Assembly: GCA_030602585.1 (NCBI GenBank)
Contig: JAUVZJ010000016.1
Coordinates: forward strand, 1-38,740
DNA from: Candidatus Methanophagales archaeon
GTDB lineage: Archaea; Halobacteriota; Syntropharchaeia; Alkanophagales; Methanospirareceae
Length of the DNA stretch: 38,740 bases
Reading direction: 5' to 3'
The notes beneath the pieces were generated by a model that saw nothing but the letters and a program-made list of their open reading frames with translations, did no database searches and was not told where the DNA came from. A program made the translations under genes and the position numbers. Shown here in pieces: positions 4,169-34,641 of this stretch. Position 1 is the first letter of the stretch. Every line of letters starts with the position of its first letter.

Positions 4169-4729
4169 ATGAAAATAGTAGTGGGAATTACAGGTGCAAG
4201 CGGCGTGGTATATGGAATAAGACTGTTAGAAGTGCTGAGTGATATAGCGGAAACATATCTCGTCATATCAGAGAGTGCAAAGCAGATAATAGCCATAGAA
4301 ACGGAATATGAACTTGAAGAAATATATGCGCTTGCTTCTCACGTATATGACAATTCAGACCTCGCAGCACCGCTGAGCAGCGGGTCCGTGCAATACGACG
4401 GAGCGATAATAGCGCCTTGCAGCATGAGAACCCTGGGCGGTATTGCATCCGGCATATCTACTACGCTAATCACACGAGCCGCGGAAGTATGTTTGAAAGA
4501 GGGTCGAAAATTGGTTATTATTCCAAGAGAAGCACCGCTCAGTCTTATACATCTGGAGAACATGGTCAAGGTGAAGAAAGCGGGCGCTATTCTGCTGCCT
4601 GCATCGCCGGCATTTTATCATCTACCGAAAACCGTGCTCGATATGGTAGATTTTATCGTGGTAAAAGCACTTGATGTATTTGGTGTAAAGATAAATACTG
4701 AATTAATAAAGCGATGGGGAACAGAGTAA
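4169..4729 (+). CDS. ubiX: UbiX-type flavin prenyltransferase
   Basis: A 186-residue flavoprotein of the UbiX/Pad1 family. The family makes prenylated FMN from dimethylallyl phosphate and FMN as cofactor for UbiD-type decarboxylases. The FMN-binding start MKIVVGITGASGVVYGIRLL, the APCSMRTLGGIASG loop, PREAPLSLIHLENM and the ILLPASPAFYHLPKT segment are all present. It is tightly coupled to mmp3 (4-nt gap). No UbiD partner lies in the window. In this genome the product may serve a UbiD-like step of quinone synthesis, since an MqnD-like gene lies at 13080; this is an inference. Confidence 0.93.
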   Translation: MKIVVGITGASGVVYGIRLLEVLSDIAETYLVISESAKQIIAIETEYELEEIYALASHVYDNSDLAAPLSSGSVQYDGAIIAPCSMRTLGGIASGISTTLITRAAEVCLKEGRKLVIIPREAPLSLIHLENMVKVKKAGAILLPASPAFYHLPKTVLDMVDFIVVKALDVFGVKINTELIKRWGTE

Positions 4730-4781: not shown

Positions 4782-4898
4782 GCGTCGATGGTCTAGAGGT
4801 ATGACTTGGGCCTTCCAACCAAACTTTTTATAAAAAAGTCTGATCAAAAAGAAGAGGGAAGATAGCCCACTGCCCGGGTTCAAATCCCGGTCGACGCA
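4782..4898 (+). tRNA. tRNA-Gly (anticodon TCC) with an intron
   Basis: The acceptor arms GCGTCGA (4782-4788) and TCGACGC (4891-4897) pair, and A4898 is the discriminator. The T arm is CCGGG-TTCAAAT-CCCGG. The anticodon stem TGGGC (4807-4811) pairs with GCCCA (4865-4869) around loop CTTCCAA, giving anticodon TCC at 4814-4816. A 46-nt intron interrupts the canonical position 37/38, at 4818-4863 or 4819-4864; both give the same product because an A occurs at either edge. CCA is not encoded. Splicing would need the archaeal endonuclease acting on a bulge-helix-bulge. The intron contains a hairpin like those in the dispersed repeats. Confidence 0.93.
4818..4863 (+). other. tRNA-Gly intron carrying a repeat-like hairpin
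   Basis: After the splice site, the intron has the arm ACTTTTT facing AAAAAGT and then CTGATCAAAAAG. This resembles the repeat at 34556-34584, where a longer hairpin of the same kind ends in GTTTGATCAAAG. The resemblance suggests that the intron shares an origin with the dispersed hairpin family or has been invaded by it. Confidence 0.6.
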
Positions 4899-4903
4899 TC
4901 ATC

Positions 4904-4969
4904 AACCCTTTTCTTTAAAACTTTTAAGAAAAGTTTTATCAAAAACGCTTCGCAGAAAAGAAAAGCGTT
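4904..4969. repeat. A/T-rich nested hairpin repeat, copy b
   Basis: It begins 6 nt after the tRNA with AACCCTTTTCTTTAAA and matches copy a closely for about 60 nt. It ends in its own hairpin: AACGCTT (4944-4950) pairs with AAGCGTT (4963-4969). It could also act as a 3' processing or stop signal for the tRNA transcript. Confidence 0.7.
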
Positions 4970-5069
4970 GACGGAAAAGAAAACACTATTTAACCAATAA
5001 ACGGCTGTGAACCTTCATTCTCAACTAAAACGTCAAATCTTAAAGTCACTGATGTTTAAATGGTTTTTC

Positions 5070-5786
5070 CTAAAATCCTAATGCATCCTCGATTCTTCCT
5101 AACTCCGCACCTGTTGTCTCATATCCGGCAGCATATCCCTTTGTGTTAGCGAGCAAAGCCGCACCTATTAAGGGAACACCGAAGTTAACACTGCCTATCT
5201 CCACGGGCAACTCGAAAATATGTTCTAAAAATTCTAATTCATCCTTCGTGGCATTTTTATGTGCTAATATGCCTTTGTTCGTCGCCACCGCAGCCATCCC
5301 TACGGTTTTTAAGCCGCCTATCGTGCCTTTATATACGTTCACATCCAGCGTTTCCTTTATCACTTCCACCGTCTTCTCCGATAATTGTGGATGAACCAGA
5401 GCAACCGTATCGTTTGCGAGTATGATATTTCCAACAGCGGTCATCCTATCTTTATCAGGCAGTCTGCTAATTTTTACCGTTAGCCCTTCTACTTCTGCCC
5501 GTGTTAATTCCTCTATTCTGCTAATCTCGCTATTCTGTGTGAAAGGAGAAAAGATAAAGCCATTCGAGTTTCCAACAGCCAAACAGCCGATCAGGGAAGT
5601 TTCATCTACCGAAGTTTTTATTGCTTTCACCTTCAACGCCCACTCCATTTCCGCCACTAATCTATCAGATACATGCGGTGGCAAAAGAACCAGAGATTCT
5701 GTGCATGACGCAAAAACACCTATATATGAACTACCATCAACACCAAATATCCTTCTTATCTCTTTCGCTCCTCGCCTTTTCGTCAC
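5070..5786 (-). CDS. eif6: Translation initiation factor aIF6
   Basis: A 238-residue protein of the eIF6/aIF6 family, which binds the large ribosomal subunit and keeps the subunits apart. The pentein-fold repeats are visible as GSSYIGVFASCTESLVLLPP, ETSLIGCLAVGNSNGFIFSP, MTAVGNIILANDTVALVHP, VGMAAVATNKGILAHKNAT and IGAALLANTKGYAAGYETT. The family is usually near 220 residues, so the first 12-15 (MTKRRGAKEIRRIFG) may be a small extension or the start may lie slightly downstream. It follows rpl31e after 6 nt, completing the rpl39e-rpl31e-eif6 operon common in archaea. Confidence 0.96.
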   Translation of the reverse strand: MTKRRGAKEIRRIFGVDGSSYIGVFASCTESLVLLPPHVSDRLVAEMEWALKVKAIKTSVDETSLIGCLAVGNSNGFIFSPFTQNSEISRIEELTRAEVEGLTVKISRLPDKDRMTAVGNIILANDTVALVHPQLSEKTVEVIKETLDVNVYKGTIGGLKTVGMAAVATNKGILAHKNATKDELEFLEHIFELPVEIGSVNFGVPLIGAALLANTKGYAAGYETTGAELGRIEDALGF

Positions 5787-9877: not shown

Positions 9878-9997
9878 TAAACCTTTCTTTTGAAAAGAAA
9901 GCTTTACCAAATATTATTTCTTTTGGTAAAGCTTTTCTTTAAGCCCTTACAGGGCTTGCGGGGTCGTGGGGCGGAGCCCCACATAAGAAAAGGTTTT
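9878..9997. repeat. Cluster of four hairpins inside an outer inverted repeat (copy c)
   Basis: Four stems follow one another. The palindrome CTTTCTTTTGAAAAGAAAG is at 9883-9901. A 14-bp stem pairs AAAGCTTTACCAAA (9898-9911) with 9922-9935. AGCCCT/AGGGCT is at 9942-9956. GTGGGGC/GCCCCAC is at 9966-9982. The outer arms TTAAACCTTTCTT and AAGAAAAGGTTTTT enclose them. The cluster lies between the 3' end of one gene and the 5' end of aroC on the same strand. Confidence 0.8.
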
Positions 9998-34546: not shown

Positions 34547-34555
34547 TTTTGTCTC

Positions 34556-34641
34556 ATCAAACTTTCTTAAAAAGAAAGTTTGATCAAAGAAACTATTATT
34601 TTTTCTTTTCCGAAAACGCTTTTCTTTTTCTAAAAGAAAAG
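34556..34641. repeat. A/T hairpin repeat between hisB and purC (copy e)
   Basis: A perfect 13-bp stem ATCAAACTTTCTT (34556-34568) and AAGAAAGTTTGAT (34572-34584) is followed by a second stem CTTTTCTTTT (34619-34628) with AAAAGAAAAG (34632-34641). It ends in AAAAGGGTTT, the inverse of the start of copies a and b. It lies in the divergent promoter region. Confidence 0.75.

Follow-up and report, generated by a model that had tools for sequence, protein, structure and literature searches.

A dispersed hairpin repeat within the introns of several tRNA genes of ANME-1 archaea

The origin of archaeal tRNA introns and of their sequences has long been an open question, and few direct links are known between such introns and repeats. 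MITEs, REP sequences and Rickettsia palindromic elements are short, palindromic, noncoding repeats that occur in many copies, mostly in intergenic DNA, and have no transposase of their own. In the literature that we found, residence of repeats of this type in tRNA introns was not described. Transposition of tRNA introns has been reported for the Thermoproteales (Fujishima et al. 2010, as described in PMC4090602 and PMC4033280): the same intron sequences recur there from one tRNA to another, both at canonical positions and elsewhere. In Caldiarchaeum, a tRNA gene is disrupted by a mobile element of 1.8 kb with a recombinase gene, which was proposed to bring the intron by recombination at the tRNA (Sugahara et al. 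2012, PMC3293823). In eukaryotes, mobile spliceosomal introns are known as introners (PMC11782384). Our literature search retrieved no report of ANME-1 repeats in tRNA introns, and no small noncoding hairpin repeat common to intergenic DNA and the introns of several tRNAs. Here we analyzed a stretch of 38,740 nucleotides (the window) from contig JAUVZJ010000016.1 of a Candidatus Methanophagales genome (GCA_030602585.1; 2.05 Mb in 89 contigs, labelled G000), together with the corresponding tRNA genes of its relatives. Judged by the eIF6 gene next to the tRNA, its closest named relatives are Methanophagales MAGs, which places the window in an ANME-1 genome.

The tRNA-Gly(UCC) gene and its intron

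The sole tRNA recognized by Rfam in the window is a tRNA-Gly(UCC) at positions 4782-4898 of the forward strand (RF00005, 52 bits), located between genes which, from reading their sequences, we take to be UbiX-like (4169-4729) and eIF6 (5070-5786, minus strand). A plain ARAGORN run did not report this tRNA because it carries a 46-nt intron at the canonical position; with introns permitted, the program called a tRNA-Gly(TCC) with that intron. Based on Rfam and ARAGORN, the 5' exon spans 4782-4818 and the 3' exon 4865-4898, and the intron (CCAAACTTTTTATAAAAAAGTCTGATCAAAAAGAAGAGGGAAGATA), delimited by ARAGORN and RNAfold, occupies 4819-4864, in agreement with the preliminary description of this DNA, which had placed a tRNA-Gly intron at 37/38. 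A canonical cut between A37 and A38 would set the 5' exon end at 4817 and leave the mature tRNA unchanged. When the intron is removed, the tRNA has the same sequence as intronless orthologues in relatives, such as those of G013 and G014.

RNAfold predicted a helix between GGAAG, in the 3' part of the intron, and CUUCC, in the anticodon loop, with the 3-nt bulge AUA separating this helix from the 3' exon; the second bulge was read from the sequence. This predicted structure fits an archaeal bulge-helix-bulge tRNA intron, as had been anticipated for the folded precursor, and the intron ends required by the splicing endonuclease are intact. The body of the intron, at 4820-4848 (CAAACTTTTTATAAAAAAGTCTGATCAAA), is a copy of a hairpin repeat for which we used the consensus CAAACTTT..AAAGTTTGATCAAA, and differs from it at only one of 22 fixed positions. 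Dinucleotide shuffles of the intron gave a mean of 8.9 mismatches and none of 1000 equalled the real sequence (P = 0.001). The ACTTTTT/AAAAAGT pair and CTGATCAAA, both previously claimed for this intron, were found in it.

Folding of nine repeat-bearing anticodon arms from this and other genes predicted the helix between anticodon loop and intron and the 3-nt bulge in eight of them, the repeat, whole or partial, folding into a hairpin of its own enclosed by that helix. The exception was Gly(UCC) of G016, in which just two helix pairs form, and misfolding was predicted for the full-length Arg precursor of G005. As modelled, the splice structure is independent of the repeat sequence.

The repeat in intergenic DNA and in tRNA introns

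Further copies of the repeat were located on the forward strand of the window. Copy b, directly 3' of the tRNA, spans 4904-4983 and consists of AACCCTTTTCTTT, a hairpin at 4917-4943 with two mismatches, GCTTCGC and a GCGTTGACGGAAAAGAAAA tail. It begins at the sixth base past the tRNA, much as the preliminary description had it, and its segment 4904-4964 has an intergenic near-twin at 2427-2487 (97% identity over 61 nt). A long-stem copy (ATCAAACTTTCTTAAAAAGAAAGTTTGATCAAAGAAA) lies between divergent genes at 34548-34593; its hairpin, at 34558-34588, shows no mismatch to the consensus, so that the likeness formerly noted between the intron and a hairpin near 34556 is real. In the short-stem form the GCTTCGC tail often comes next and the units are sometimes arranged in tandem with a 39-nt period, as in the arrays of three units at G000:C17:18209-18312 and G005:C221:10593-10696; in the long-stem form GAAAC follows.

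A search of 258.7 kb of G000 with two mismatches or fewer gave 14 places, the Gly(UCC) intron counted in, and none for the reversed repeat sequence, while a strict pattern gave 21 copies in G000. Of 36 genomes of the ANME-1 family, 33 matched the strict pattern; among 23 from outside the family, 3 did so, with a single match apiece, and a reversed control pattern gave zero in every genome of both sets. Pattern searches and a sample of about 259 kb of G000 are the basis of these genome-wide counts. The hairpin repeat is a multi-copy family specific to the ANME-1 lineage. Carriage of the repeat by viruses was set aside, as two exact patterns had no match among IMG/VR contigs. MITEs have terminal inverted repeats and target-site duplications and are moved by a transposase; the hairpin repeat is palindromic, and no duplicated target was recognised at it in the G000/G001 and G013/G029 comparisons. 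Movement of the repeat was not directly seen.

The copies are mainly intergenic and some of them stand directly after tRNA genes, in sense orientation. We rejected the idea that the repeat strongly favours tRNA 3' flanks, because in G000 the repeat (three mismatches or fewer) was found in the 3' flank of 3 of 41 tRNAs, a modest excess only. A role as transcription terminator was likewise rejected as the sole one, since copies also lie between divergent genes. A more general proposal is that the hairpin is a shared functional RNA which serves introns, tRNA trailers and messages as a signal for binding or processing and which was selected and did not spread. It would suit the pairing kept despite varying stem lengths, the motif close behind several tRNAs and the body of the Gly(GCC) intron, which is well conserved across genera. 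However, copies are found in every gene orientation, gaps between divergent genes included, in 39-nt tandem arrays and, in a few cases, in reverse against tRNA 5' ends. Moreover, introns of the same genes lack the repeat in relatives and several of its intron copies have decayed, which makes this proposal quite improbable.

Other tRNA introns of G000 also contain the motif. Besides Gly(UCC), with one mismatch, it was identified in the introns of Arg(CCU) and Gly(CCC), with one and two mismatches, respectively. Scaling the 13 copies outside the intron per 258.7 kb to the 232 nt of all five G000 introns, an arithmetic of our own, we would expect about 0.01 copies where three were observed; if non-coding DNA alone is counted (17% of the sample), the figure becomes about 0.07. 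For the Gly(GCC) intron the relation to the repeat is weak (5 mismatches, P = 0.036), and we did not retain it in the strict family, though AACCTTTCTTT and GTTGACG are common to it and the other intergenic form. The Ser intron of G000 has no repeat, and Met, Ser and Leu introns gave no repeat signal in the mismatch and shuffle test. The resemblance might be a chance one, given that an ordinary intron and the repeat are both A+T rich and that poly-T/poly-A hairpins form easily. Yet such a coincidence is extremely improbable in view of the observed and expected numbers of matching introns, the negative Met, Ser and Leu introns, the reversed control and the shuffles: in seven of the family's eight Gly(UCC) introns, not one of 1000 equalled the real sequence.

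A second, GC-rich palindromic repeat (TAAGCCCTTACAGGGCTTGCGGGGTCGTGGGGCGGAGCCCCACA) was noticed at 9940-9983 of the window, between the arms of an A+T-rich hairpin, and recurs at many ANME-1 loci. This GC-rich repeat, which is dispersed and unrelated to the hairpin repeat, also interrupts the Arg(CCU) intron of G003 and G005 within its 5' arm. In G005, it sits in a copy of the hairpin repeat 3' of tRNA-Gly(CCC) as well. At locus L085 (about 1928-1970), it lies in frame inside an open frame of 510 codons, presumably a Pus10-type gene as judged from reading alone, and encodes the peptide ELKPLQGLRGHGAEPHKT, which recalls the Rickettsia palindromic elements within genes.

Introns of the same tRNA genes in relatives

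Our survey in depth covered four tRNA genes, Gly(UCC), Gly(CCC), Gly(GCC) and Arg(CCU), read in up to 41 genomes, those of the family being draft MAGs (from their identical coordinates, G059, G060, G061 and G062 are taken to be G005, G024, G004 and G025, respectively). The Gly(UCC) intron was found in eight family genomes (G000, G001, G002, G004, G005, G009, G016 and G024), is repeat-like in all of them (P 0.001-0.003), and is absent from the remaining family members read. The outgroups G038 and G041 have Gly(UCC) introns unrelated to the repeat; that of G041 (L262) is 299 nt long, with several short palindromes of its own. The ends of the outgroup introns (CCA..GGAAGATA) are shared, a weak sign of common descent because pairing with the anticodon loop largely dictates them. 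Twelve introns were read in Arg(CCU), nine of them repeat-like by the shuffle test and another, that of G004, visibly degenerate (9-10/12); those of G006 and G008 are unrelated. The Arg(CCU) intron of G002 and G016 consists of CAAACTTTTAGAAAAAGTTTGATCAAAA plus CGGGAGAAA, an unaltered repeat copy accounting for 28 of its 37 nt. In Gly(CCC), 5 of 11 introns contain the repeat (G000, G004, weakly, G007, G009, with three partial copies in tandem, and G016). Those of G006, G008, G014, G019, G022 and the outgroup G041 are unrelated to it, and the short intron of G021 is doubtful. An intron of 108 nt with an unrelated sequence containing CTTCAAACCTCAACCCTCAAACCTGACACC is common to Gly(CCC) of G014 and G022 (L246, L247) and may be another repeat. 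Most family genomes have a Gly(GCC) intron, many with a related body (AACCTTTCTTTCTT..AAAGAAAGAAACGTTGACG); it is without repeat in G006, G010, G012, G017 and G041.

The preliminary description had regarded relatives that carry the repeat elsewhere and have an intron unlike it as evidence against its proposal. Such relatives exist for Arg(CCU) (G006 and G008) and for Gly(CCC) (G006, G008, G014, G019 and G022), and there are none for Gly(UCC), for which intron and repeat are inseparable in ANME-1, every known intron of this gene in the family having the repeat.

Comparison of genomes with and without introns, as had been recommended, revealed that introns vary between sister species. The Gly(CCC) intron of G000 is missing from G001, of the same genus, that of G007 from its sister G018 and that of G016 from G005 and G025, with alignable flanks in every case. 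Mapped on the eIF6 tree, the presence of the Gly(UCC) intron requires 5 changes, against a mean of 5.4 for shuffled labels; the repeat introns of Gly(CCC) require 4 changes for 4 genomes on the tree, and the Arg(CCU) introns are clustered more strongly than shuffled labels. The eIF6 and aRF1 trees confirm the scattered presence and are neutral as to gain or loss.

The near-random scatter of the Gly(UCC) intron and the sister-species differences in Gly(CCC) would agree with a repeat that makes introns: a hairpin inserted in the anticodon loop would have given rise to the intron of Gly(UCC), and perhaps to others, with flanking bases adapting later to pairing with that loop. So would the repeat in eight of eight family Gly(UCC) introns and the 30-nt Gly(UCC) intron of G005 and G016, which is little beyond the hairpin and GAAGATA. 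The ANME-1 palindromic repeat would then generate tRNA introns with its hairpin as inner helix, as an archaeal, endonuclease-spliced counterpart of introners. Both the insertion event and this wider role seem unlikely. Each intron has a 3' end complementary to the anticodon loop of its own tRNA, which a single generic repeat could not supply. The variant CAACCTTTT with GATCAAAAAG is common to Gly(CCC) introns of several genera, and a leading CC to the Gly(UCC) introns; these gene-specific variants point to one ancestral intron per gene, and their sequences suggest that many losses, or allele exchange, may explain the distribution better than many independent gains. Finally, at each of the four tRNA positions an outgroup or another ANME-1 branch has an intron free of the repeat.

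The flow could also have been reversed, with excised tRNA introns reverse transcribed and pasted into the genome, the dispersed repeat descending from them. Archaeal introns are released and can circularise (PMC11782384), and in G005 an exact copy of 61 nt from the Gly(GCC) intron stands directly behind the same tRNA (L102, 242 and 354, reverse strand). This duplication suggests local copying of intron segments, although in a MAG sequence an assembly error is possible. We consider this route very unlikely, for the dispersed copies that we read often bear a longer unit, with a TGCTTCGCA tail, and none has intron ends. In addition, G000 and G001 have Arg(CCU) introns that look like a truncated form of this longer unit (AAAATGC), which suggests a direction from genome to intron.

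Our preferred reading, with a probability of roughly 0.65, is that of a normal archaeal bulge-helix-bulge intron whose body was taken over by a short dispersed ANME-1 hairpin repeat, introns being a tolerated landing site. The repeat would spread to intergenic DNA, to tRNA edges and to already existing tRNA introns, where it would be tolerated because splicing takes it out and the hairpin holds the splice sites close together. Relying on the predicted structures, we conclude that tRNA introns are probably permissive sites for an inserted hairpin. The suggestion that tRNA introns are a landing place for this element is thus well supported by its presence in several tRNAs and genera, the second repeat in one intron and the repeat-free introns at the same four positions. 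The companion suggestion, that the repeat supplied the intron body, holds for the present-day sequences and does not extend to the creation of the introns.

Comparison with known systems

Since many close genomes with and without introns are available for several tRNA genes and one repeat family, intron gain, loss and takeover become traceable stepwise, and our results suggest that spliced tRNA introns can be a shelter for dispersed repeats in a prokaryote. The ANME-1 repeat is like MITEs, REP sequences and Rickettsia palindromic elements in being short, palindromic, noncoding, numerous, mostly intergenic and without its own transposase, a likeness of traits by which we claim membership of none of them. 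The Thermoproteales resemble this case in that different tRNA genes within a single archaeal lineage have similar intron sequences and the introns turn over rapidly; in ANME-1, however, just the intron body is shared, this body is a dispersed intergenic repeat and all the introns are at the canonical position. As in Caldiarchaeum (PMC3293823), tRNA introns are tied to mobile DNA and are polymorphic among close relatives, but instead of a large element with a recombinase gene, ANME-1 has a non-coding palindromic repeat of some 30-60 nt inside the intron. With eukaryotic introners it shares an intron body that is the sequence of a dispersed repeat; introners, however, are spliceosomal, reside in protein genes and are known intron creators, whereas the ANME-1 introns lie in tRNA genes, are expected to be spliced by the endonuclease, and have creation by the repeat as a candidate reading.
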